Of a stretch of 64,000 nt of DNA, positions 4,340-52,607 are shown in pieces. The notes under the pieces are model-generated. The model was not told the origin of the DNA. It saw nothing but the letters and a program-made list of their open reading frames with translations, and did not search any database. Location of the stretch: the NCBI RefSeq assembly GCF_021130785.1, contig NC_060215.1, forward strand, positions 67,770,501 through 67,834,500. The letters run 5' to 3'. The position numbers and the translations under genes are program-made. Each line of letters starts with the position of its first letter. Within the stretch, counting starts at the first letter, position 1. Source of the stretch: Homalodisca vitripennis (lineage: Eukaryota > Arthropoda > Insecta > Hemiptera > Cicadellidae).

Positions 4340-6472
4340 TTAACAGTCTTCATTCCATGAAACCCGAATCCATGATTCTAAGTTTTCGATGACATTGGAT
4401 TGCTTAGATTGCTGCTCAGTGTTGTGAGTCTGCTCGCTTTCATCCGATTTTGGAATGTCCACGTCATTCTCATCGAGCCATTCATGGTGCTCTAAATTTT
4501 GAATAATGCACATCAGTTCATTAGCACGACGAGCAGCGACTCTTACAGGTCTAACTTTCCTATCTGTGTGCGTGTTTACTTTCTTATGTCCCTTTTCGAT
4601 GTGCCGATTTAGTGGCTTGACGGAAGCATGATAAAGACCACACGTTTTGCATGTTCGACTTGATAGCCTCAATTGTACCGTCGGACAAAAATAATCGTAT
4701 GGCATTTGCAGGAAATCTTTGAGTGAAGCACTTAAGCGTAGAGCTAAATTGACTGGAAGATTAAGAAATTGCCCTCCTTCATCTAAAACCAAGTCATCAA
4801 CTGTTTGTTTTACTTTTACAGGTGGTGGAAGAAACCTGTTGTCTAGTAATCTAAATAGGCCACTTCTTGGACGACAGCATTCTGTATTTCTACATTTTAC
4901 AATTTGGAGCAAGTATTGGCTTTCACGCACATGTTCTGAATACCATTTAATGTCTGGAAATCAGGAAGATCTTGTTCACCTGCCCCAACATATTTTGCAT
5001 TAACATTATAGCCATCAATTTCCATTGAACTCTATACTTCAGCTAATACATTTCCTGCAAATTCGAAATTAGATCTTTCTAAATGTTCATCAATTGTAAC
5101 GCCACGTTCATCCAAATGAGACCCAAAATGGTCATGAGGCAATATTAAACCAGCCAGTTTCCGACTAAGAGGAGCCATTCTGCGCTCTACTCTGTTATAC
5201 GCACTTCTTCCGGGAGCATTGGTAGCTGAAAACAATGCATCGAAATCATGTCGCTTAAAGTGTTGTATATCAAACCCTATGACTTTTTGATAACGCGGAT
5301 TTTCATCTGGCCCTCCATCAACCGTCATGATTACCACTGGTTTTACTAGTCCATGGTCAGTTTTAGCTAATGGTCGAAACTCTTCAAGTTCGATAAGCGT
5401 CTCGAAATCCTGATCATGAGTATTAGCAGTAGATGAACTATGCTTTCCACTTCGAATAGCGATGTATGTTGGTCCAGAATATCCAACGGCTTGCGGTTGT
5501 CCTAGCATATTGGAAGTGATTTTGATACCAGCATAAACAGATGGTATTAATTTATGACGCTCAGCGATTACCCAATCGTGATCAGGCAATTTGATTCTAT
5601 ATTCCATGTGCATTAGAAGAGGTGCTTGCTTATTTGCCGCAGTTACGCCAATAGGGACTCGAGCTTTATCATCTTGAGATATGAAAAATACTTGATCTGG
5701 TCCTAGTATGGATGCTATGTTCTCTAAATAATGGATTGATGTTTCAGCGAACTTGCTATCTAAGTGGCTCTTGTGGTGATCAGTTTGAGCCCGAATGAGC
5801 TTAACAGGGACTGTCGATACATGTCTTCGTCCCTCTGCAGAATTAGATTTTCTGGGAATCAAACGAAGATATGTCCCACTGCGACTAATGTCAAATCCCA
5901 TTTTACGTAATTCTTGTGTGAGTTCATCAAGAGTTTTTACGCTGCGAATTGATTCCGTTCGTCTTCTATCATCTGCTGAACTCCCAAATAAAGCTATATC
6001 CGCGATTGTTTTCAATAGTAAAGGTTGATTGCTTTCAAGATTAGGACGTCCCACTGAATCCCTCAGAGATAGTCTTTTTTTCATTTCTGGATTTTCATGA
6101 CAAATATCTTCTAACTTTCTTTTCATACCATCCCTGTGTTTCTTCTGGGCAACTGCGTTTTGAACCTTCCTGTTTAAAGACTGTTTTGCTGTTTTTATTT
6201 CCTCGCGCAACTTAATGATCTGTTTATCAACTTCAGCACGGCTTGGCATAGTATCTCTGACAGAATACAAAGCATTCAGATTTTTTTTCGAGTAGAACAA
6301 TCTTATTTTTCATAGCGTCCTGAGAAGGTTTTGGTCTCTGTTTATCTGTATTTTTATTTATTTCGCATTGCTGTTGTGATTCATTACCGGTTTTTATTTT
6401 ATCTTCTTCCTGTTTTTTAATATTTGAAGCTGGCTGTGTGATTTGTGTTTTTTCTGCAGGTTTACAGGTTGC
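4340..6472 (-). pseudogene. transposase exon 2, probable DDE catalytic region (broken)
   Basis: A 3' splice site (TTTTTAG) precedes 6472. The frame opens ATCKPAEKTQITQ and continues through a Lys/Glu-rich linker to an A8 run at 6281-6288, where the frame shifts. The main block follows (6278-5035). Candidate acidic catalytic positions are in FISQDDKARVPIG and VVIMTVDGGPDENPRY, with a possible Glu in RSAYNRVERRM, then ILPHDHFGSHL. A TAG at 5032-5034 and a second frameshift near 4955-4975 interrupt the protein. The C-terminal block runs to 4340 with WYSEHVRESQYLLQIVKC and a Cys/His cluster (CKTCGLYHASVKPLNRHIEKGH). Such proteins are widespread as uncharacterised transposon ORFs. The three lesions suggest a recently inactivated copy, although the A8 shift could be a sequencing error. 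Confidence 0.6.
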
Positions 6473-39716: not shown

Positions 39717-39720
39717 CCTA

Positions 39721-40802
39721 TGATGTATTTCAGATTTGAAGTGATGTCAATTTGATGAGAGTGGCAGATTATAACGCCAATTTGCTATGTGTCACCCCCA
39801 CGTTGGTTGCGATAATTTGCTGAAAGTCAGTTCTTTAGAGTTATTGACTCACCATGTAGTTGTACGCCCCTTGTCACCAGTGGCACGTTGTTGTACCATG
39901 TTGCTCATCATGGTATCGGTCGCCATCTTGCCCAATGCTAGCTGTATTCCCTCGGTATTACTCAAAAATTATTAGATTTGAACGTCTCTGGTGTTATCAC
40001 CAGAGACAAGTCTGTGTGTATGTCAGGGTTCCAAAATATGTTAAGTAATGATTACATAATTTAACATCACTCCACACTTGTTATAAAAGGGATATTTAAA
40101 GAAAGTCAAACCAAGTGACCACGAGATTAATTTATTAAATGTCACACTCTCAACACATATTATAATTTCACTCACCTTGCAGTGCTTTGATAATTTTAAA
40201 AGTCTAAACAATATCCCATCCTTGATTAAATTTCAATATACTATACAACAGATAATTACTATCCCAGGAGAACTAACACAACCTCCTTGCTTCGAGTCTG
40301 GTGAAAGAAGAGCGAATCTCCGTATAAAACGACGGATACCGACTCAAAACAATATTCATCCCCTCTCTCGTTCAAATCAGCGTCTTCACGAATAAATTTA
40401 ATTTAATTCTTTTTTTATAATTGTCGAAATTTATTACGTTTACTATAATTAATCAATTTAAGTATTTCTATTTTCTTTTTATTATTTTTTCAAAGCTTTT
40501 TATTTAAATTTTTAGCAACATGTGCTTTATGACGTCATCAATATACAAGTCATTCATACCACAATTGGCTTTTCTGCGTAATTCTATTTAATGTTTTTGT
40601 AAAACACGAATTTTGGTTATGTTTACTTCATTTTAATTAATAAAATCTTTTCCCGAATAAAGTTCAATAAATTTCTTCGTTATTAAATAAATCTCAATTC
40701 CGACAACATGTGATTCACTGACGTCACAGTCTGCCGATTCATTGACGTCACAGTCTGCCAATTCCCCGCGAATATTCAAATGTCGTAATTTGACCTGTTA
40801 CA
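39721..40802 (-). repeat. 3' LTR
   Basis: 1082 bp, nearly identical to 47087-48112. The extra length is mainly a ~33-bp segment containing GTCTCTGGTG-TTAT-CACCAGAGAC, a perfect 10-bp hairpin, and a tandem copy of the TGACGTCACAGTCTGCC segment. Short plus-strand frames in both LTRs are spurious. Confidence 0.95.
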
Positions 40803-40813
40803 CAACCCCCAAA
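40803..40813 (-). promoter_or_regulatory. polypurine tract
   Basis: On the sense strand ATTTGGGGGTTG lies directly before the 3' LTR start (TGTAACAGG). It is short and G-rich, at the position expected for the plus-strand primer. It is interrupted by T residues, so it is a weak match. Confidence 0.4.
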
Positions 40814-41687
40814 TATAAATTGATCACATATTTGTTATCAATTTATATTTCTCCTCCAATTAAATCTTTTAAATTTTTGTCCAATTAAGCTATTATTTAA
40901 ATTTCTTGATAATTTTGTTTAAAAGTATTCATTTAAAAGAAAGTAAAATATCAAAGCAAAGCTTACAATCATATTACGCAAATTACAATGTATTAAATGT
41001 TTACACAAATTACAGTGTACATATAAATCAATTACACAAATTACAATTAATACAAATATCAATGAATATATAAATCAGCTACACAAATTACAATTAATAT
41101 TAAATGATTACACAAATTACAGTGTACATATAAATCAATTACACAAATTACAATTAATACAAATATCAATGAATATATAAATCAGCTACACCAATTACAA
41201 TTAATATTAAATGATTACACAAATTACAATATACATATAAATCAATACAATTAATACAAATATCAATGAATATATAAATCAGCTACACAAATTACAATTA
41301 ATATTAAATGATTACACAAATTACATATAAATCAATTACACAAATTACAATTAATACAAATATCAATGAATATATATAGATAAGAACAGTACTAAAGTTT
41401 TAAATACTTTTAAATTAAATACTTGTAACCTCTATATGTTTTGAATATAATGTTTAACGTGTCCATTTCACATAACATAATGTTCAATACAAGTTAACTC
41501 TATCAGATTATACACTCACAAGTTATAATAATACACAAATACCTTGTAAGAATCCTAAACATATTCTTACTGATAAACAATATTGTAATATCCTTATATT
41601 GTCATCTCCTACTGGAAACATATTACATATATTATCTACTATATTACATTATCCTTGTCACATCTTATTCTAAATATTTATACAACC
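40814..41687 (-). other. non-coding 3' region in place of the integrase core
   Basis: Stops occur in every sense frame directly after pol, and no integrase DDE or env-like sequence is recognisable. The region is AT-rich and its distal part is the 108-bp tandem repeat. Confidence 0.7.
40985..41370. repeat. ~108-bp tandem repeat inside the LTR element
   Basis: About three and a half copies of a unit with TACACAAATTACAATTAAT, CAAATATCAATGAATATATA and ACATATAAATCAATTACAC. Equivalent points lie near 41014, 41122 and 41230, with a shortened fourth copy near 41323. The unit itself contains repeated ACACAAATTACA motifs. It lies between the pol stop and the 3' LTR. Confidence 0.85.
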
Positions 41688-44600
41688 CTATACTAATCTA
41701 TTTACATCAAGTCTAGCACATTCTACATTCCCATGTTTACTCTTTTGGCACAATATACACTTTTTTAACTGTTCCTTTACACTTCTTTCCATATTCTTAA
41801 AAATACAATACTCTTTAAGTATATTAAATATTTTATGACCTCCTAAATGTCCATATTTTAAATGAGTAAAATTAACTAAATCCTTTTTAATACCTTCTGG
41901 AATACATACTTTCCATACATCACTATTTTCATCCTTTCTCTTAAAAATTATCCCTCTATACTCCATAAATATTTTATTTATTTTTCCATAATGAACTCCT
42001 TCGCTGTCATTTAAGATATTTTTTATATTTCTCAAATACTCATCCTGTTCTTGTTTTTTATCTAGATTCTTTAATATTTCCTTTATCTCACTATCTTTAA
42101 AACCTAAATCAATTTTGTTGTACAAAACCTTGATACTGTATTTTTCTACTGAATTTTGACTATCCTTCTGTGTAATCCTTGACAGTATGTCTGCTGGAAT
42201 GTTCTCTTTCCCTTTAACAAATTCTATTTCAAGATTAAACTCTTTTAATGCTAAAGCCCAGCTCAACAATCTACCATTTGTTAATTTACAACTTTTTAAG
42301 AATGTCAATGCTTTATGATCTGTTCTCACTATCACTCTGGGATGTCCTATTAAATATGATCTAAATTTTTTACAAGTTAATACTACAGCTAACAGTTCCT
42401 TTTCTGTGATCGTGTAAAATTTTTGCGCTTGTGTTAAAGCCTTGCTATAAAATGATATCACCTGTTCCTCATTGATTTCATCTAACTGATATAATATTCC
42501 ACTAATGTTAAGGTCACTTGCATCTGTATTTAAATAAAATGGTTTGTTAAAATCTGGATGTTTTAAAATGACTGCATTTAAAAATTCTGTTTTAATTTGT
42601 CCAAATGCCTTTTCTTCTTTTTCTGTCCACTTCCATTCTATTTTATTACTCAATAAATGATTTAACCGTCCTATTAAATTGCCATAATGTCTTTGAAACT
42701 TTGCATAATACAAACATAATCCATTAAACATTTGTAGTTCTTTTATGTTTGTAGGTCGTTTAAAATTCACTATCTGTTCAATTTTATTTTTATCCATTTT
42801 AATTCCTTCAGCTGAAATAATGTATCCTAAATAATTTATCTCTTTTCTTAAAAATTGTGATTTTTTTAATTTGACTGTTATTCCTCCTTCTTTTAATCTA
42901 CTTAAGACCTGTTCTACATGTTTGAAATGTTCTTCATATGTGTTTGAAGTGATTAATATATCATCCACATATGTAGTTACAAAGTCTGTCAAGTCATGAC
43001 CTAATACTTTGTTTAACCCTTTAATGAACAACGCAGTACTAACATTCAAACCATATGGTAGTCTTTTATATTGTAAATTCCTCCCTTCGAAGACAAACGC
43101 TACATATTTTCTGGACTCTTTACTTAATTGTGTTTGTAGAAATCCCTGTGATAAATCTAATGATGTCATGTATTTGACTCCTATAAACTTTTTCAATACA
43201 TCATCTATGTTTATTGGTGATTCCCTATCTGGTATTATGTGTTGATTCAAATTCCTGCTATCTAGACATATTCTTAATGACAGATCCTTTTTAACTACAC
43301 ACACCAATGGGTTAGAATATGGACTATCAGACTCCTCTATTGTGTCTCCTTTTAACATATTTTCTATTTCCTTTCTTACACCTTCCCTCTTTGAATAAGG
43401 TATTGGATAGGATCTTCCTACAAATGGCTTTTCATTTGTTATATTTAATTTGGCCTCATAATTCTTTATACAGCCTGGTTCATCTGAAAAAATATCTTTA
43501 TTTTTCATCAGTATACTTTTTAATTTATTTAAATCTTCATTTTCCTTTACTTCACAATGTTCTAATATTTCTAAAACCTGTTTATCCTTCTCATCATTAA
43601 CTTTGTCCTTCATATTTTCTGTATGTGTTTTACATATAAATTCTATGTTGTTCCAAGAATTTTTCAGCTCATCTTCACTTACTAATGTATTTATGTAATT
43701 GCATCTAATTAACTTTATACCATTGACTATATCCTCTGATTCACAGTTTGATTCAGTAAATTCAACATTTAATACTTCTTTATCTACCTCCAACTTTATC
43801 TTACCATGTTCAAAGTCAATTTTTGCATTGTGTTCTCTAAAGAAGTCACATCCTAGTATTATTCCCAAGTTCACTGCTTTGACTACTAGAAAATTTATTT
43901 GAAATAATTTATTCTCTATCATGACCTGTTTATCAATCTTTTTACTTCTAATACCTGTTACTCCTATTATACTTAAATTTGTTACCGGCAGCTCTAAAAT
44001 TTCAAGTACACTTCTTTCTTTTATCTCATTATAATACTTTTCTGACATTATTGTCGCCTGGCTTCCTGAATCTATTATCATGTGATACTCCTCTTTATTT
44101 ATTTTTCCAAGTATCTCAGGTAGTGCTTCTGCTACTGGTTTTATGGGAATTTTATTATAATTATCTTCATTGGTCAATTCATCAAAGATGTCATTTTCTG
44201 GTATAAAAGCTGTATTCACCCCTAGTCTTAGTCCAGATTTTTTCTTATCTGATCTTATCAGATTTCCAAGCTCATTTGCTAGAATTGTTAGACCCTCTTT
44301 ATTCAGATGTATTAAATCTTCACACCATTTTCCTTTATAAAATATTTCCTTTTCATATAATTTCACATTACAGTCTGTACTATCATAGTTATCATAATAC
44401 TTCTCTGCCACTTCTAAAACTGTAACTTTTTCATTATTTTCTTTACTTTTTATATGTTCATTTATTCTTTCAAGTTTATTTAAATGATATCTGTCATTCT
44501 CACCTAACTTTGGTATGGGTGGAATGGTTACCAAGATTATTTTATCAGCTTTCTCCAGTAAAACCTCTACTAGTTTGTCATAATCATTACAAATATTTTT

Positions 44601-44888
44601 TACTTCTTTATCCCTTAATAAATCATTTGTACCTATCATTACTATTAGCTGTTTTTCTAAATTATTTGCATGTTTTAGCTCTCTGGTCAACTGTTCAATT
44701 GTCTGACCTCCTATGCATGAGTTAATTCTCTTTCCTCCTTTCTCTCTATATTCACCTCTTAAATTCATTATTTTCTCCCCAAATCTCCTAAGTTGAGAAT
44801 CTCCTATCATTTGGTATCCCTCAAAATTAGGTTCCTTTTTCTCAATCGTTTCTTTCATTCTAGCCTGTCCTACCCATTTGTTTTCCAT
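41688..44888 (-). CDS. Pol: SGNH hydrolase - protease - RT - RNase H - integrase zinc finger
   Basis: 1066 codons from Met 44888, or a continuation of Gag by UGA readthrough. Residues 25-215 form an SGNH/GDSL hydrolase: GDS 29-31, Gly 60-61 (SCIGGQT), GTND 86-89 and DLIH 191-194 supply Ser31, Gly, Asn88 and Asp191/His194. The aspartic protease has DSG at 273-275 and IILGCDFF at 343-350. RT has LDLSQGF (577-583), LPYG (610-613) and YVDD (640-643). RNase H has NTDAS (788), TEKELLAVV (828), TDHKAL (856) and ADILSR (899). The integrase N-terminal HHCC motif is at ~1009-1047 (THLKYGH, CILCQ). The frame ends at 1066, 19 residues after the last Cys, so the DDE core and C-terminal domain are missing. 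All other motifs look intact. Confidence 0.9.
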   Translation of the reverse strand: MENKWVGQARMKETIEKKEPNFEGYQMIGDSQLRRFGEKIMNLRGEYREKGGKRINSCIGGQTIEQLTRELKHANNLEKQLIVMIGTNDLLRDKEVKNICNDYDKLVEVLLEKADKIILVTIPPIPKLGENDRYHLNKLERINEHIKSKENNEKVTVLEVAEKYYDNYDSTDCNVKLYEKEIFYKGKWCEDLIHLNKEGLTILANELGNLIRSDKKKSGLRLGVNTAFIPENDIFDELTNEDNYNKIPIKPVAEALPEILGKINKEEYHMIIDSGSQATIMSEKYYNEIKERSVLEILELPVTNLSIIGVTGIRSKKIDKQVMIENKLFQINFLVVKAVNLGIILGCDFFREHNAKIDFEHGKIKLEVDKEVLNVEFTESNCESEDIVNGIKLIRCNYINTLVSEDELKNSWNNIEFICKTHTENMKDKVNDEKDKQVLEILEHCEVKENEDLNKLKSILMKNKDIFSDEPGCIKNYEAKLNITNEKPFVGRSYPIPYSKREGVRKEIENMLKGDTIEESDSPYSNPLVCVVKKDLSLRICLDSRNLNQHIIPDRESPINIDDVLKKFIGVKYMTSLDLSQGFLQTQLSKESRKYVAFVFEGRNLQYKRLPYGLNVSTALFIKGLNKVLGHDLTDFVTTYVDDILITSNTYEEHFKHVEQVLSRLKEGGITVKLKKSQFLRKEINYLGYIISAEGIKMDKNKIEQIVNFKRPTNIKELQMFNGLCLYYAKFQRHYGNLIGRLNHLLSNKIEWKWTEKEEKAFGQIKTEFLNAVILKHPDFNKPFYLNTDASDLNISGILYQLDEINEEQVISFYSKALTQAQKFYTITEKELLAVVLTCKKFRSYLIGHPRVIVRTDHKALTFLKSCKLTNGRLLSWALALKEFNLEIEFVKGKENIPADILSRITQKDSQNSVEKYSIKVLYNKIDLGFKDSEIKEILKNLDKKQEQDEYLRNIKNILNDSEGVHYGKINKIFMEYRGIIFKRKDENSDVWKVCIPEGIKKDLVNFTHLKYGHLGGHKIFNILKEYCIFKNMERSVKEQLKKCILCQKSKHGNVECARLDVNRLV

Positions 44889-44897
44889 CCTGTTTTC

Positions 44898-44906
44898 CTC
44901 TAGTCA
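44898..44906 (-). promoter_or_regulatory. predicted readthrough stop between gag and pol
   Basis: The sense strand reads TGA CTA GAG. The gag stop and the pol frame are in the same register: 15 nt, five codons with no stop, lie between TGA and the pol Met. UGA followed by CUA(G) is a well-established leaky context in animal genes and RNA viruses. This would yield Gag plus a minority Gag-Pol without frameshifting. Confidence 0.7.
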
Positions 44907-46679
44907 TCTATTACCTCTCATACTTCCTCTTCCCCTTGTATATTCATATTGATCTCTCTGATGCCTCGTTTCGTTGTTTTCATACCTTTCTTTCTCCTTT
45001 CCATAATCATTTGTATCTCTACCCCTATTATTACTTTGTCTTCTCCTATCATTCTCAAACTCTAGTCTCTCCCTATTATATGTGTTCCTATTGTAGTATG
45101 AGCCTACTCTAGTCAAATTATTTCCTCTAATATTCCCTCTAACTTGTGTCCCTCTATATGGTGTATCTCTATGTCCTAAATTCTTGTATTGATTTACATT
45201 TTTATTGAGTGTTGTCTCATTTCTCATATCAAATGATCTGTCATAACTTCTATTCAGTATATTAAGTTGATTCAACAGGTTTTCTAGATCTTCTGATCTT
45301 TCAACATTTTGGGCTGCAGCAATTGCACTACTTATGGTTCTAGGAACGTGTTTGCTTATATATGCTAGGAATGTTCCCATGTCAATTCTAGTTTCCAAAT
45401 ACTGGCTTTTATTATAAAATTCCAATACATATGTTACTAGATTGTCAAATCCAACCCTGTATGTACCGTTACCCATTAGTTCTTTTTCAAATTTTTTCTG
45501 TTCCCCTATGGACCAATATTTCCCTTTAAAACTCCTATAAAATTGTTCAAAGTTTTTCCAATTATTTATATGCTGTCGCCCCCACTTTCCTGCTTCATTT
45601 TTCATATATTTTAAAATTATCAATACCTGGAAGTCCCATCCTTCTCCATTTTTCTCTATATATTTTTTACAAGCTTCCAAAAATTCCATAGGATGTACAT
45701 TATTTTTTATTGGATCAAATTCCAATAAGAATATTTCTGTGTTTGCTGGTTGGCTTATTCTCATGCCCACCATGCTTTGATTTCTCATCATATTTTCTAG
45801 TTGTGTTTGTTTGTTTTCTAATTTCCCTAGAGTTTCATCCAATCTCTTATTCAGGGATTTTTCTACCCTATTTCCCATGTCCTCTATTTCCTGTAAACTA
45901 CTGCCCGTTACTGACTTGTATTCTACATCCCTCCTAGCCTTACCATTTTCTGTATCCTGGTCAAGTTCTAAGTTAGCTCTGTCCCTATCTACCTTACCAT
46001 TTAATTCATCTAATCTTGTTTTAAATCTCTTATTTATCTTTTCTAATCTTTGATCTATTTTCTTTTTATCATCCTCAATGTGTACAAACCTTTTCTCAAT
46101 TTCCCTCATATCTTCTTCTCTTTTATCTTTTAATTTCTTTATCTCCGTTGTAACCTCTCCTCTAACCTGACTTTTAAGTTTATTCCTCTCACCTTTGTTT
46201 TTCTCAGCTTGTTCGTTTATTTCAAGTCTGACCCCCTCCTCCAAGTTCTTTAAGTCTTTGTTTATCTCTACTCTCATAACCTCCTTTGTCTCTACTATTT
46301 TATTGTTTAACTCACCTCTCATCTGTTCCATGTCTGGTTTTAACTGCTCATTACTTCTTTGAATTTCCTTTTTTAGTTCCTCATTATTCTGATCTATTTT
46401 ATAATTCAGATCCCTTAATCCCTCATTATTTTTCTTTAACTCCTCATTATTTTTATTCAACTCCTCATTATTTTTATCCATCTTTTCATTCAAGTCCTTC
46501 CTTAATTCCTCATTATTTTTCTTTAACTCCTCATTATTTTTATCCATCTTTTCATTCAGACTATTCATCATAGTCCTCATGAATGTAATAAGACCTTCAT
46601 CCCTATTAACTCCTACTGGACTACTGACTCTGCTAACCTCATTCTCTAATGAATTTCTGTCATCTGTTGTCGACACCAT
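44904..46679 (-). CDS. Gag polyprotein of the LTR element
   Basis: 591 codons from Met 46679 to UGA at 44906-44904. Residues ~35-300 form a long charged coiled coil, starting with repeated NNEELKK/NNEELRK heptads (residues ~40-90) that are visibly duplicated. A capsid-like helical region follows (~305-470), with FLLEFDPIKNNVHPMEFLEA and WGRQHINNWKNFEQFYRSFK, resembling the Ty3/gypsy retrotransposon-gag domain. The C-terminus (~500-591) is Arg/Asn/Tyr-rich and ends in RG repeats (RGRGSMRGNR). No CCHC zinc knuckle is present, so RNA binding probably relies on the basic RG tail. The sense strand is strongly A-rich, as in many retroelements. It is in frame with pol through the UGA. Confidence 0.85.
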   Translation of the reverse strand: MVSTTDDRNSLENEVSRVSSPVGVNRDEGLITFMRTMMNSLNEKMDKNNEELKKNNEELRKDLNEKMDKNNEELNKNNEELKKNNEGLRDLNYKIDQNNEELKKEIQRSNEQLKPDMEQMRGELNNKIVETKEVMRVEINKDLKNLEEGVRLEINEQAEKNKGERNKLKSQVRGEVTTEIKKLKDKREEDMREIEKRFVHIEDDKKKIDQRLEKINKRFKTRLDELNGKVDRDRANLELDQDTENGKARRDVEYKSVTGSSLQEIEDMGNRVEKSLNKRLDETLGKLENKQTQLENMMRNQSMVGMRISQPANTEIFLLEFDPIKNNVHPMEFLEACKKYIEKNGEGWDFQVLIILKYMKNEAGKWGRQHINNWKNFEQFYRSFKGKYWSIGEQKKFEKELMGNGTYRVGFDNLVTYVLEFYNKSQYLETRIDMGTFLAYISKHVPRTISSAIAAAQNVERSEDLENLLNQLNILNRSYDRSFDMRNETTLNKNVNQYKNLGHRDTPYRGTQVRGNIRGNNLTRVGSYYNRNTYNRERLEFENDRRRQSNNRGRDTNDYGKEKERYENNETRHQRDQYEYTRGRGSMRGNR

Positions 46680-46800
46680 CCTGTTCTACTGTATTAGGGG
46701 ATGACCAACCTAAAAACCCTGTATCTCCTGAGCTATGAAGATCTATTTCTATTGGTCTAAATATTGGTGCGGGCCCTTCATTATTTTGTTCGCCTTTCAT
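46660..46800 (-). CDS. 46-codon leader ORF overlapping gag
   Basis: On the sense strand an ATG at 46800 opens MKGEQNNEGPAPIFRPIEID and ends with TGA at 46662-46660, overlapping the first 20 nt of gag in another frame. Composition is protein-like rather than random AT. It could be an upstream regulatory ORF, or the original Gag N-terminus displaced by a one-base shift near 46680, because its frame runs directly into the gag start region. No homology is recognised. Confidence 0.35.
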   Translation of the reverse strand: MKGEQNNEGPAPIFRPIEIDLHSSGDTGFLGWSSPNTVEQDGVDNR

Positions 46801-47053
46801 TTTGTAGCCTATGTTTAATTTGAAAATTTATATTATTAATTTAGGCCTTATTTTTGTTTTATTAGCCTACCAGGAAAATTTTACCAATTTATATTATAAC
46901 TAGGTTGTTCAAAGTTATCAAACTTATAGACTAACAATAATTTGTTATACTTCTTCTAGACACACACCTGAAAATACAATTTACAATTATATAAAGACAG
47001 TGATTTTCACTTAGTCTAAAATATGCTACCACTAACCTACTTAAATTAGTTGT

Positions 47054-47083
47054 GGAAGTTCGAGCCCTCCAGTTGGTGCGCCA
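47054..47083 (-). promoter_or_regulatory. primer-binding site, tRNA-like beyond 18 nt
   Basis: Three bases after the 5' LTR the sense strand reads TGGCGCACCAACTGGAGGGC and continues TCGAACTTCC. The complement ends in GCGCCA and contains GTTCGAGCC, the conserved T-loop sequence of tRNAs. Complementarity therefore appears to span the acceptor and T arm, about 30 nt, resembling a tRNA-Lys-type 3' end. The exact tRNA needs alignment. Confidence 0.6.
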
Positions 47084-47410
47084 TTTTGATGTATTTCAGA
47101 TTTGAAGTGATGTCAATTTGATGAGAGTGGCAGATTATAACGCCAATTTGCTATGTGTCACCCCCACGTTGGTTGCGATAATTTGCTGAAAGTCAGTTCT
47201 TTAGAGTTATTGACTCACCATGTAGTTGTACGCCCCTTGTCACCAGTGGCACGTTGTTGTACCATGTTGCTCATCATGGTATCGGTTGCCATCTTGCCCA
47301 ATGCTAGCTGTATTCCCTCGGTAATACTCAAAAATTATTAGATCTGTGTGTATGTCAGGGTTCCAAAATATGTTAAGTAATGATTAACATAATTTAACAT
47401 CATTCCACAC

Positions 47411-47424
47411 TTTTTATAAAAGGG
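47411..47424 (-). promoter_or_regulatory. TATA box of the 5' LTR
   Basis: The sense strand reads CCCTTTTATAAAAA, downstream of both CRE octamers and ~330 bp before the LTR end. Transcription would start ~30 bp further on, near 47385, giving an R-U5 of about 300 nt. The 3' LTR equivalent has one substitution (TTATAACAAG). Confidence 0.5.
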
Positions 47425-47863
47425 ATATTTAGAAAGTCAAACCAAGTGACCACGAGATTAATTTATTAAATGTCACACACTCTCAACACATATTATAATT
47501 TCACTCACCTTGCAGTGCTTTGATAATTTTAAAAGTCTAAACAATATCCCATCCTTGATTAAATTTCAATATACTATACAACAGATCATTACTATCCCAG
47601 GAGAACTAACACAACCTCCTTGCTTCGAGTCTGGTGAAAGAAGAGCGAATCTCCGTATAAAACGACGGATACCGACTCAAAACAATATTCATCCCCTCTC
47701 TCGTTCAAATCAGCGTCTTCACGAATAAATTTAATTTAATTCTTTTTTTTATAATTGTCGAAATTTATTACGTTTACTATAATTAATCAATTTAAGTATT
47801 TCTATTTTCTTTTTATTATTTTTTCAAAGCTTTTTATTTAAATTTTTAGCAACATGTGCTTTA

Positions 47864-47871
47864 TGACGTCA
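47864..47871. promoter_or_regulatory. CRE/ATF-type octamer in the 5' LTR U3 (distal)
   Basis: A second perfect TGACGTCA, conserved in the 3' LTR at 40530-40537. It lies upstream of the LTR TATA box on the sense strand. Confidence 0.5.
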
Positions 47872-48052
47872 TTAATATACAAGTCATTCATACCACAATT
47901 GGCTTTTCTGCGTAATTCTATTTAATGTTTTTGTAAAACACGAATTTTGGTTATGTTTACTTCATTTTAATTAATCAAATCTTTTCCCGAATAAAGTTCA
48001 ATAAATTTCTTCGTTATTAAATAAATCTCAATTCCGACAACATGTGATTCAC

Positions 48053-48060
48053 TGACGTCA
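48053..48060. promoter_or_regulatory. CRE/ATF-type octamer in the 5' LTR U3 (proximal)
   Basis: A perfect palindromic TGACGTCA about 55 bp from the sense start of the LTR. The 3' LTR has two tandem copies here (40719-40726 and 40743-40750). TGACGTCA is the canonical CREB/ATF recognition sequence. Function here is inferred. Confidence 0.5.
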
Positions 48061-48116
48061 CAGTCTGCCAATTCCCCGCGAATATTCAAATGTCGTAATT
48101 TGACCTGTTACACCTA

Positions 48117-50275
48117 TCTCATTATTTATTTTGATCAGTATCTGACAAAGCTGATTGGTGATCAATTGGTGTTGCGGGAAGGACATTCTGATAACGGAGT
48201 CGTCTATTTGTAGATTTTACTATCATAATAAAGTCCCGATGATGTTGATGTTGTCGGCATGAAACAATACAACAGACTTAAATAGTGACTATGAATTATA
48301 TTCCAAGATTAAATTATATTTATAATTAGTATTAATTACAACTATATCAGAACGTCTCGATCGACGTTCATGAAGGGGGAAGGTACGTGTTATAAATATT
48401 TTGAAAGAAACGTGAAATTTTCAAACGTTCATGACATATGGGAATGTAGTAAAATACTCTTGACTTTGTCAGAGGTCATTCATCAGGCTTTGATTGTAGG
48501 ACTGTAATGATTGTAGGATTGTAAGATTGTCCGCGCCTAATTTTTACGAGGGTTTTGACGTAACTTTTCCATGACATGGTGGGACAGCTTCTTAGTAGGG
48601 TTGTGAGAAAGATATTACGCAGTATATCTGTGTTTACTATATAATATAAAAATAATATACGTCTCTAGTGATAACAAGATAGGATACTAAGGTGAATCTC
48701 ACAAGTAACCTATAAAACTTCTCGGTGGACAAAATATAGTCTTTTAAAGTTGGGAGAGTGATAAGAAAACAGAAAAAAACAAAATAAACAACTGAACAGT
48801 TTTTTACATATCTCGACATTCCTTAACATCAAATTTAATAATGCTATTTAAGAATATTTCATATTTCAGTGCACTGCATGTGCACGACTCAGCTATTATT
48901 TAAACTTTCTATGTTTACGAGTTGAAATGATATTAACCATGTAGTAACTATAACAAGCCATCCAATATGTTTTAGGGATCGATAACAATTTGACAATATT
49001 TAAATTCAATAACACCGATTAGTTATTTTTAATTCTTATTACTTACTTTAGATTAATTAAGCGGGCAGGTTAGAGGCCTAAACCACTTATCCTTATCTAA
49101 TATTAACCATATACAGTTTATTCCTTCGTTCATAAAAAAAACTATTAAAAATTACCTTATTTGGAAGTCCTTGATTTTTATAAATCTTAATTGCAAAAAA
49201 ACGTTATACGAAATCAAAGTAATAAATATATAGTAACCGAAACAAATTTCATACAAAATTATTCAGTTCTTTCTAGTACAAGTACATCCTGAATCTTGGA
49301 ATTATTGTTCTTTATATGTGTAAACGGTGGTTGATTGTTAAAGAGGCAGAATCGATTTCTCAAAGAAACAAATTACTATAAACATGTAATTTACTTAATT
49401 ATATTTAATAAATACAAGTCGTGAATCAACAAAAACAGTGTTACTCCCTGAAGCTATAGGTCACATGTAAATAAATAATGTGAAAAAACTTCACATTTTT
49501 ATCTTCAACCTTTTTTGGTTTGGCCTACAAAATTGCTTAAATTTCCAATTGTGTAATTCCTTGTAAAGTGATAACGATATTTCTCCAATTTTTTTCAGTC
49601 TACAGGAAAGTTATTTTAAAGAGCTACGATTTTTAAAATGAAACATTTTCCCATGCAAAATTCGATTGCAACATTTTAAAACACCACAAATAATATAGAA
49701 ACCATGTAATATCTCCACTCGGTTAAAACTGAACGAAGGGGATAATCGCTCAGTTGCAGCATGAGCACGACATGGCTGAAATATATAGAAACACTCGGAA
49801 ATTACGTTTATTTTAAATAGTGCTTATCTCTTGTTGTTGCTTTTAAAGGTCAAGTCTTAATCGACTCTATCTTATCTTGTTTAACATTAACAAACGTATC
49901 TGTGTTTTTAGAAGTGTTTTCTGAGAACCTAAATAATATTGTAACGATCTATATAGGTAGTAGTTATTTGTAGGCTATTCAAGCTCTTCGTACCAGTGAG
50001 GTCGGCCTAACCCAGTAAACCCAGTGTACGGCTGTGTGCAAGACACAAGCTCGAGTTAGGTCGGAGGAGGTCGTTGTTTTGTCGAGCTAGAGGCTAGAGC
50101 TGTTCCGTCTGCGGTTTTGGCGAAGCGTTGATGCCGCATGGTGCAAGCAAGGCCAACAGGCCACGATCCGGCAACGTCGCGTTCCCGCTGCACAAACACC
50201 CGTTTTCAGCACCACTCTGTATGAACCTCTTTTAGTTGCCTGTTGACGTATCTTCGGATTCCAAATTGGCTTGTT
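48117..50275. other. mostly unassigned; partial GGAC-palindrome repeat at 48505-48600
   Basis: AT-rich DNA. 48505-48600 (TTGTAGGACTGTAATG, ACGAGGGTTTTGACGT, GGTGGGACAGCTTCTTAGTA) is a degenerate fragment of the repeat family at 60.6-61.3 kb. 50030-50215 is GC- and CpG-richer (CCGGCAACGTCGCG), possibly a promoter or exon, but without a supported frame. Confidence 0.4.
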
Positions 50276-50375
50276 TGTGTGTGTGTGCACATACACGTAC
50301 ATACATACATACATACATACATATATAAATATATAAATATATATATATATATATTATACACACACACAAATATAC

Positions 50376-50426
<51 letters not shown>

Positions 50427-50460
50427 CACACACATAAATATACGTGTGTGTGTGCATATT
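50276..50460. repeat. compound microsatellite
   Basis: Adjacent (GT)n, (ACAT)n, (AT)n and (AC)n runs. The longest is a TA tract of about 40 bp at 50381-50421. Frames through it are spurious. Confidence 0.95.
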
Positions 50461-52607
50461 ATATATAGCTACTTCATTTCATTATATTTTGGTACACTGT
50501 GAATATTTTTTATTGAGCTACTTGTATTTGCAAAAGATCAAATTTTTCATCAGAAGGGAAACATATTGAATAACTTAGCTAATGTAGAATTGTAGTATAG
50601 GAATACAAACACAAGTTTATTTATCAAAGAAAAAGTTAATGCGAAATAATATAAACCTAGTTTTAATGCCGTAGAAGAAAGCAATATTTCCAAACTGAAA
50701 TAAGATCCAAATTTGATTAAAAATTTTTGGCGTCTTACGGGAGGGTTAAAATAAATGTTGGAAAGCGAATCTAGAGAAATCCGTTTTTCACCAGTTCAGA
50801 CGTATTTTATGACTCGACTAGTCAGGCTTATACCCTACTTCTGGAGTTTACTATTAAATATACTAATCTCAATTTAAAGTTAACGTAAGCGATGGAAACG
50901 TTTCTAAAATTAAATTACGAATTCATGATTTGCATAGGCTGATAGGTCAGGTTAGTTTCAGGCCTCATTTCAGCATTCTCCGTGGCTTAATTGTCTAAAA
51001 ATTATACAACCTACACAATTGGTTTAAGTGCACACTTTAACAACACTTTAGTCTTTTTGGTGATAAAAATAGCGCTATACCATGTTTGTATTTGTATACT
51101 AAATTTAAAGTATTACTGCTTTAAGGCTAACATTTTGTGGGTTTTCTATAAACTCAAACGTCAAAAATTCTCAAATTGTTCTACATTTCTCGATGTAGAC
51201 TCGCAGCTCTAATATTGGAGATATTCCATTCTGCTAGAAATATTTCCCCAGTACCCAGCACATTTGAATGCTGAATGCACATCCAAAACATGAACTGATA
51301 CGTGTTACCAAGTTATTCTGATTTCCCTAACAGGAATTCGGATACAGTTTGTAGTTTGCCTTTAGTTCAGACTATCTGGAATATCTGGAAAATTTTCTAA
51401 GCCAACAGTACACAGTGAGTCAAGTCATGTATTGTAGAACACATCTTCAAAGCTGGTTAACATAAACAATTACTGGAAACACTCACGGTTGGTTACTATA
51501 TTATTGAAATGTTGGGGATATTCAGGATTTGGAATCACACATTGAACCTAGTATAGCATTGCTTGGCATTATGATTTCAATAAATGCATAACATAACCAA
51601 GGAATTTATTTAATTTAATTACTTAATTTTCATTTATTTCGATCCCTAGTTAACCTAAGCTAACAATGTTTGATGAAGCTATGGACACATAGTCCACGTA
51701 AAAAAAAAAAAAAAATACTTAAACAATTTTATTATAACATTTCATTTATAAGCATTTCAGTTTCATTTATAGCTGAATTTTATAATGGTCAGGACTGAAC
51801 TACCTATCTCCATGGGTTAGAATTAGAGAATTTAAATTTACAAGTTTAAAACAAATACTTATAAAATGACATGAAATACTTCAAATAATATAAAATTATA
51901 CTAAATACTTGGTTGTAATTTTAAAAATAGTCGTATGCACAAGCCAGTACCTGTGATGAACGCTGATAAATCAATATCAAAAATATAAAGCTGGTTTATC
52001 GTAGTTCGGTTGTACTTCACTTATCTACACGAGTTAGTTTTGCTTCGAAATTGATAATTCCTGCTCAAAATAGCAGATCTGAATATCTAATATTCCTAGA
52101 GGAACGTTTAGAAATGATTACGGGTAGATACAACCTCTATTGCATAAGCCATATCGGACCAGGCTGTCGGCGAAGAGCAGTGCGGGTCGATATATACGTT
52201 AGGGTTTGCAACCTCCCCCCTCATCCCCCACCATACCACATTTACCTTCCACAGCCATGTGTTTATAATAAATACGCAAGTAATACACTAGAATTCTATC
52301 ATTATCTACCAATACAGTTAGTTATCGATTCGATAAATGTCGCTATCTAAGCATTTGACTTGAAGACCTTTGCCCCTCACAATAATTAGAAGCCAAAAGA
52401 TCCGAATTCAATATTGATCGATCAGGGCGAACAAATACATACATTGACCACAGGTTGCGTCATTTTAAATCTGTCGTCGTTTAGGAGATTGCATGTACCT
52501 TATACGTGCTGCCTCCTTTGCCCTGTCCTGCCACTGAAATGGTCAAAACTCAACAAAAATTGGCTTCAGTGGGATTGCAAGTTTTTGGCAAATGCACATT
52601 AAATTAA
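50461..52607. other. no recognised feature
   Basis: AT-rich DNA with an A14 run near 51700. Frames at 50991-51212 and 52051-52350 have no motifs. Confidence 0.45.

Follow-up and report, generated by a model that had tools for sequence, protein, structure and literature searches.

A predicted OSK-type SGNH-hydrolase domain between Gag and protease in Ty3/gypsy retrotransposons of Homalodisca vitripennis

The glassy-winged sharpshooter Homalodisca vitripennis, a leafhopper (Hemiptera), carries Ty3/gypsy retrotransposons in which a predicted SGNH-hydrolase domain opens the Pol polyprotein, between Gag and the protease. The insertion described here lies on the minus strand of a stretch of 64,000 nucleotides (contig NC_060215.1, positions 67,770,501 to 67,834,500), which we call the window; coordinates are those of the window unless a contig or locus is named. 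Gag and Pol share one frame and are parted by a single TGA. The first ATG of the Pol open reading frame (ORF) is at 44888, its stop codon ends at 41688, and Pol residues are counted from this ATG. The features of the insertion, from one long terminal repeat (LTR) to the other, are these:

39721..48112, minus strand: whole Ty3/gypsy insertion, LTR to LTR (LTR pair, TG...CA ends, TAGG duplication)
47087..48112, minus strand: 5' LTR, about 1.03 kb (similarity to the other LTR; ends read from the sequence)
44904..46679, minus strand: Gag ORF, 591 amino acids, with a long, charged, coiled-coil-like N-terminus and an RG-rich C-terminus
44904..44906, minus strand: TGA between Gag and Pol, one frame, CTAG next (from the sequence; putative leaky stop)
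41688..44903, minus strand: Pol frame, from the codon after TGA through its stop codon, 1071 codons
44238..44816, minus strand: SGNH-hydrolase (OSK-type) domain, Pol residues 25-217 (Pfam, AlphaFold2, Foldseek, VIA-align)
44796..44798, minus strand: codon of Ser31 (GDS), predicted nucleophile (alignments A2 and A3)
44307..44318, minus strand: codons of DLIH (Asp191 to His194), which holds the predicted catalytic Asp and His (alignments, motif positions)
43815..44105, minus strand: aspartic protease (PR), Pol residues 262-358 (Pfam)
42816..43292, minus strand: reverse transcriptase (RT) core, Pol residues 533-691 (Pfam)
42237..42629, minus strand: RNase H region, Pol residues 754-884 (Pfam)
41733..41903, minus strand: integrase (IN) H2C2 zinc-binding part, Pol residues 996-1052 (Pfam)
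39721..40802, minus strand: 3' LTR, about 1.08 kb (LTR comparison)

The ends and domain order are those of a Ty3/gypsy (Metaviridae) element. The LTRs have TG...CA ends and are 98.4, 99.2 and 100% identical over blocks of 734, 257 and 61 bp; the 4-bp target duplication TAGG, within the 4-6 bp of the group, flanks the insertion at 48113-48116 and 39717-39720. Ty3 RT (4ol8) is the best solved relative of the RT at E 3.5e-31, a closeness judged among solved structures rather than from an RT tree. PR, RT, RNase H and IN follow in the expected order as far as H2C2, where the frame stops; no integrase core was found in the window's Pol frame or downstream. The core is present in both families defined below (L020 in family A, which includes the window copy, and L014 in family B). 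Compared with the other aligned family A copies, the window protease lacks about four residues. Because the integrase core was not found and the protease is short, we regard the window copy as recent but defective. Its Gag has no CCHC knuckle. The coiled-coil-like Gag N-terminus is built of 21-nt units (KNNEELK-like heptads) at 46371-46569.

A first-pass annotation, made from the sequence alone, had noted four motifs ahead of the protease with the order and spacing of SGNH hydrolases. Recounting placed each where it had been reported: GDS at residues 29-31, SCIGG at 57-61 (CIGGQ at 58-62), GTND at 86-89 and DLIH at 191-194 (DLIHLN, 191-196), followed by the protease with its DSGS at 273. Blocks I, II, III and V of the superfamily are all present, with S, G, N and D..H. 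A regular expression for motif order and spacing, written after the motifs were seen, had no match in 200,000 shuffled versions of Pol residues 1-230. Comparison with SGNH families by profile and by predicted structure agreed. Pfam identifies OSK (PF17182) at E 2.2e-22 and 79.7 bits over residues 13-167, above its curated cut-off of 27 bits, Lipase_GDSL_2 at E 1.4e-10 (51-199) and Lipase_GDSL at E 3.6e-8.

An AlphaFold2 model of the domain, built on a 17-sequence alignment, has a mean predicted local distance difference (pLDDT) of 86.4 and a predicted template-modelling score of 0.84. It shows an SGNH fold, and both Foldseek and VIA-align rank OSK first. An earlier model from four sequences was poor (pLDDT 64, OSK ranked 35th). 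Among solved structures, Oskar is matched at E 1.9e-11, against 2.7e-4 for bacterial SGNHs and 5e-4 for the CR1 esterase 4c1b. The catalytic residues, said by the first-pass annotation to be intact, are so in five of six element sequences (S, G, N, D and H), the sixth being incomplete. Judging by these residues, Ser31 would likely hydrolyse esters, assisted by Asp191 and His194. The isoelectric point (pI) of the domain is 6.2 (acidic) in family A and 8.3 (near neutral) in family B.

Is the fusion peculiar to one decayed copy? We searched the H. vitripennis genome (2.30 Gb, 14,901 contigs). The OSK model has at least 135 matches (best 150 of 275 candidates scored) and the window domain at least 153 (best 150 of 457 candidates scored). 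A protein search also found an H. vitripennis protein 95% identical to the window domain across 60% of its length. The loci fetched include two families, A and B, and in both the SGNH domain sits between the Gag stop and PR. Family A RTs are mostly 96-98% identical; family B is about 61% identical to the window in RT, 41% in Gag and 34% in SGNH, and its Gag has a weak hit to Ty3_capsid that misses the curated cut-off (E 5.5e-4). Searches that scored only the best candidates placed an SGNH match no more than 6 kb upstream of 91 of the 99 RTs at 49% identity or more, of 4 of the 7 at 40-48%, and of none of the 44 at 33-39%. This count used 150 of 154 RT matches and an SGNH list without some weak rows, and took matches regardless of SGNH strand. 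Locus L004, the same place as L009, was left out before counting. A fusion unique to one copy under relaxed selection is ruled out by these matches and this linkage. The linkage of SGNH to this RT lineage is fixed.

A third gypsy family, C, carries the domain in another arrangement. Locus L025 has 509-bp LTRs with one mismatch and, in order, a separate SGNH ORF, a Gag that weakly matches the Arc C-lobe, short of the curated cut-off, and a Pol with an integrase core:

L025 6350-6967, 4689-6242 and 1507-4713, minus strand: family C ORFs, the SGNH ORF standing alone and preceding the Arc-like Gag

The second family C copy, L032 (1362-1859), has an SGNH ORF and a Gag-like ORF.

The first-pass annotation also took the intact residues to imply selection. 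Across the split between families A and B this holds: the ratio of nonsynonymous to synonymous change (omega) is 0.328 for SGNH (20 sequences, 208 codons), with twice the log-likelihood difference from omega 1 (2dlnL) at 31.4. These data support purifying selection on the domain between the families. Synonymous change between A and B is probably saturated, so the joint omega is rough. Within family A the signal is weak (omega 0.50, 2dlnL 5.9); family B is taken up below. Over the same A/B split, PR, RT and RNase H have omegas of 0.135, 0.095 and 0.062, and wherever tested the SGNH value is above theirs. Copies with gaps, stops, less than 93% cover or less than 75% identity were dropped, so that the SGNH values use 8 of the 14 rows of family A and 12 of the 14 of family B; PR in family A is the window alone.

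How would the domain be made? In family A, 8 of 14 rows, or 7 of 13 distinct places, keep the single in-frame TGA followed by CTAG; the remaining rows are frame-shifted or altered close to the TGA site. Family B has TGA CAA in 13 of 14 rows. A lone stop that parts Gag from Pol within one frame and recurs across copies is a readthrough-type layout. UGA CUA(G) is the published consensus for readthrough and by itself reportedly gives about 4% in mammalian cells (PMC4973966). The TGA at 44904-44906 may therefore be a leaky stop, to judge by its sequence context.

Where did the domain come from? A protein search with the A/B/C alignment matched 129 proteins, 120 of them listed; the insect-named relatives among the matches listed have 177-393 residues. 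Of ten insect relatives scanned, nine match the OSK model at 74-89 bits and a thrips protein at 34.5; none of the ten has a LOTUS domain. The window domain shares 42% identity with a Macrosteles protein, 38% with one from Laodelphax and 37% with H. vitripennis LOC124358274; its identity to family B is 34%. The evidence supports insect cellular OSK-like genes and the OSK domain of Oskar, not generic esterases, as its closest relatives. In the genome, LOC124358274 is matched piecewise (residues 40-89, 89-133 and 123-195 within 1.2 kb at C3:88257455-88256228, plus further clusters), whereas the element copies are uninterrupted; the cellular genes are thus apparently intron-split and the element copy intronless. 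Exons of such cellular genes form tandem clusters at G000 C3:88256228-88278858, C3:166.67-166.76 Mb, C8:64.16-64.68 Mb, C1800 and C137, and many copies there have a stop in the last matched exon. One relative, P0046 from Thrips palmi, has an N-terminal stretch with a weak Macro domain match (E 0.002, below cut-off). Macro domains are linked to ADP-ribose chemistry, toward which this is a hint only. The N-terminal stretch of P0025, an environmental protein, looks similar by eye and has no Macro match.

In a maximum-likelihood (ML) tree of 83 sequences, family A, family B and the environmental protein P0019 form a clade (support 91/98), and this clade groups with four cellular genes of Hemiptera (98.2/99). 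Family C is placed elsewhere, with an environmental protein (94/100). Sequences L046 and L047 were dropped from the trees, and L034 from later ones. P0019, from a 1.2-kb contig, is sister to the family A domain (65.2/92) and has GTNN in place of GTND; it may belong to this element lineage in a different species. Given the trees, the identities and the contrast between intron-split relatives and intronless copies, the best reading for A and B would be a single capture from a hemipteran gene before they split. The capture in family C looks like a separate event. The enzyme-capture idea of the first-pass annotation is thus likely to be right. Its interpretation is borne out in part: the domain is probably captured, is shared and is intact, and that its closest kin would be OSK-type was not foreseen.

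We consider it reasonably probable that Pol residues ~1-215 are an OSK-type SGNH domain whose source, by retro-capture, was likely a cellular gene of Hemiptera, and which is predicted to work as an active esterase and to be delivered in particles by readthrough of a leaky TGA into Gag-Pol. The Pfam and fold matches, the linkage to RT, the catalytic residues, the selection across the A/B split, the hemipteran relatives and the readthrough layout speak for it. The ancestor of families A and B would have taken up the spliced mRNA of a hemipteran OSK-like gene. Ribosomes may pass the TGA at a few percent, so that the enzyme would be as scarce as PR, RT and IN and not as abundant as Gag. If the stop is read through, SGNH would be made only as part of Gag-SGNH-PR-RT-IN and would enter particles at enzyme dose. 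An enzyme so placed, between Gag and protease and packed with RT, would act in or on the particle, where cleavage by the protease, or tethering in Pol, could leave it. There its substrate might be an acyl or acetyl ester on a lipid, a protein or a small molecule, whose removal would aid assembly, membrane passage or host evasion.

Several observations count against this scheme. No RNA structure was found downstream of the TGA (z 0.07 and -0.11), and a structural readthrough signal is rejected. In family A, translation could also start at an ATG five codons past the TGA; family B lacks an ATG between the TGA and the GDS block. The window copy is itself integrase-defective, and 8 of the 99 close RTs have no SGNH match found. 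A smaller tree supports the grouping of A and B with Hemiptera at 77.6/64 only, and trees that set the element sequences apart from the insect genes are not rejected by a full-search approximately unbiased (AU) test (p 0.157). Finally, the SGNH domain within family B cannot be told from neutral (omega 0.65, 2dlnL 1.2).

That last result, with the omegas above those of PR, RT and RNase H, fits a domain captured once and carried along as a useless passenger. A passenger in frame upstream of PR must stay open, which explains the frame, not the catalytic residues; yet across the A/B split the frame is open, omega is 0.33 and the catalytic blocks are intact at about 34% identity. We therefore regard a mere passenger as quite improbable. 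The same intact residues bear on a proposal that we think somewhat less improbable, though still unlikely: that the domain, like OSK in Oskar, is a non-catalytic module that binds RNA or a partner for packaging or germ-line placement, its catalytic residues kept for the fold or by descent. S, G, N, D and H are retained in elements and cellular relatives alike. Since the pI is 6.2 in A and 8.3 in B, a basic RNA-binding face is not common to both families.

There is finally the source of the domain, which could have been a bacterium, directly, or another retroelement such as one with a CR1-like ORF1 esterase. Bacterial SGNHs share the fold, and the AU test rejects neither a grouping of A and B with bacteria, to which the p value above belongs, nor one with CR1 (p 0.056). 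A fast-mode AU value of p 0.030 against grouping with bacteria was set aside because the constrained trees were handicapped. Similarity makes a bacterial origin less likely: the OSK model scores element copies listed down to E 1e-17 at 73-83 bits and nothing above 31.4 in 398 genomes of one bacterial phylum, of which five exceed the OSK cut-off. The 83-sequence tree and the ranking of solved structures, with Oskar well ahead of bacterial SGNHs and 4c1b, also argue against both sources, and we hold either to be very improbable.

The relatives of the domain bear on Oskar itself. Published accounts report hardly any Oskar in Hemiptera (PMC8662646) and derive its OSK domain from bacteria (PMC7250577); the excerpted parts of both name no catalytic insect relatives of OSK. 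Fly OSK (137 residues) as query finds 26 places in the genome at E 1e-3 or better (best 33.1 bits), all also matched by the window domain at 31-34% identity (family B type); in the 398 bacterial genomes its best score is 19.4 bits. A 23-sequence tree groups Oskar with the element domains (91.1/90). The 83-sequence tree, with insect genes added, gives Oskar no resolved place, and grouping Oskar with bacteria costs only 1.0 log unit and is not rejected by the AU test (p 0.564). It is conceivable, though we rather doubt it, that OSK came from an insect and retroelement pool of catalytic OSK-type SGNH hydrolases and lost its active site, and not straight from a bacterium. The active-site-bearing OSK-like genes of Hemiptera, beetles and thrips, together with the retrotransposon copies, provide sequences for re-testing its origin.

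Some other features deserve mention. Family A Pol C-termini match KAP_NTPase weakly (L010 5755-6597, E 8.8e-5, and L020 2972-5899, E 0.003), likely by chance. Between Pol and the 3' LTR of the window, a 107-nt repeat occurs four times at 40991-41401 (67-100% identity); tandem repeats also follow Pol at family B loci L014 and L016. Elsewhere in the window are two long open frames, 4340-4960 and 5032-6309 (minus strand), with no Pfam match at E 0.01, and an imperfect palindrome formed by a long TA/CA simple repeat (50272-50474).

How does this element compare with known systems? The closest solved structure is the OSK domain of Oskar (PF17182; PDB 5a4a, 5cd9). Oskar is a host germ-line gene with a LOTUS domain and an OSK domain without a catalytic triad (PMC8662646); the element domain has its triad intact and lies in a gypsy Pol, with no LOTUS in Pol or Gag. 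OSK-like SGNH genes are found in H. vitripennis (LOC124358274), Macrosteles (LOC128997898), Laodelphax, Planococcus, beetles and thrips. Like the element domain, they have intact catalytic residues, and the hemipteran ones share 35-42% identity with it. Unlike the element, these insect genes are cellular, have an N-terminal low-complexity stretch, are intron-split (H. vitripennis) and lack RT, PR and IN.

Single-frame Gag-Pol genes with one stop codon between are known from readthrough of the murine leukemia virus (MLV) type (PMC4973966) and from Tca2 (PMC2194720). There the protease follows the stop; here the SGNH domain does, after UGA CUA(G) in family A and UGA CAA in family B. Enzyme gain by a Ty3/gypsy element also has a precedent, an N6-methyladenosine (m6A) demethylase domain in orchids (PMC9289625): another enzyme in another host kingdom.

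Retroelements with SGNH genes are likewise already known. The ORF1 protein (ORF1p) of CR1/L2/RTEX long interspersed nuclear elements (LINEs) has an esterase upstream of RT (ZfL2-1, PDB 4c1b; PMC3905857), but this is a more distant domain (E 5e-4) in the separate ORF1 of a non-LTR element, made at structural dose; ours is in the Pol of an LTR element. Vesta LTR retrotransposons of bdelloid rotifers carry an SGNH/GDSL hydrolase with intact residues as ORF3 (PMC5408684), of non-OSK type, separate and downstream of pol, not fused in Pol ahead of the protease. Ngaro-type elements (PMC9210276) also have an SGNH hydrolase, in a separate ORF, and are tyrosine-recombinase (YR) retrotransposons. In the open-licence literature of PubMed Central we found no report of an SGNH domain between Gag and protease of a Ty3/gypsy element, and none of an OSK-type SGNH in retroelements. 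As far as we found, then, the position and the OSK type are new. A particle-borne SGNH hydrolase at enzyme dose would be a use of this fold other than that in the LINE ORF1 esterase or the downstream ORF3.
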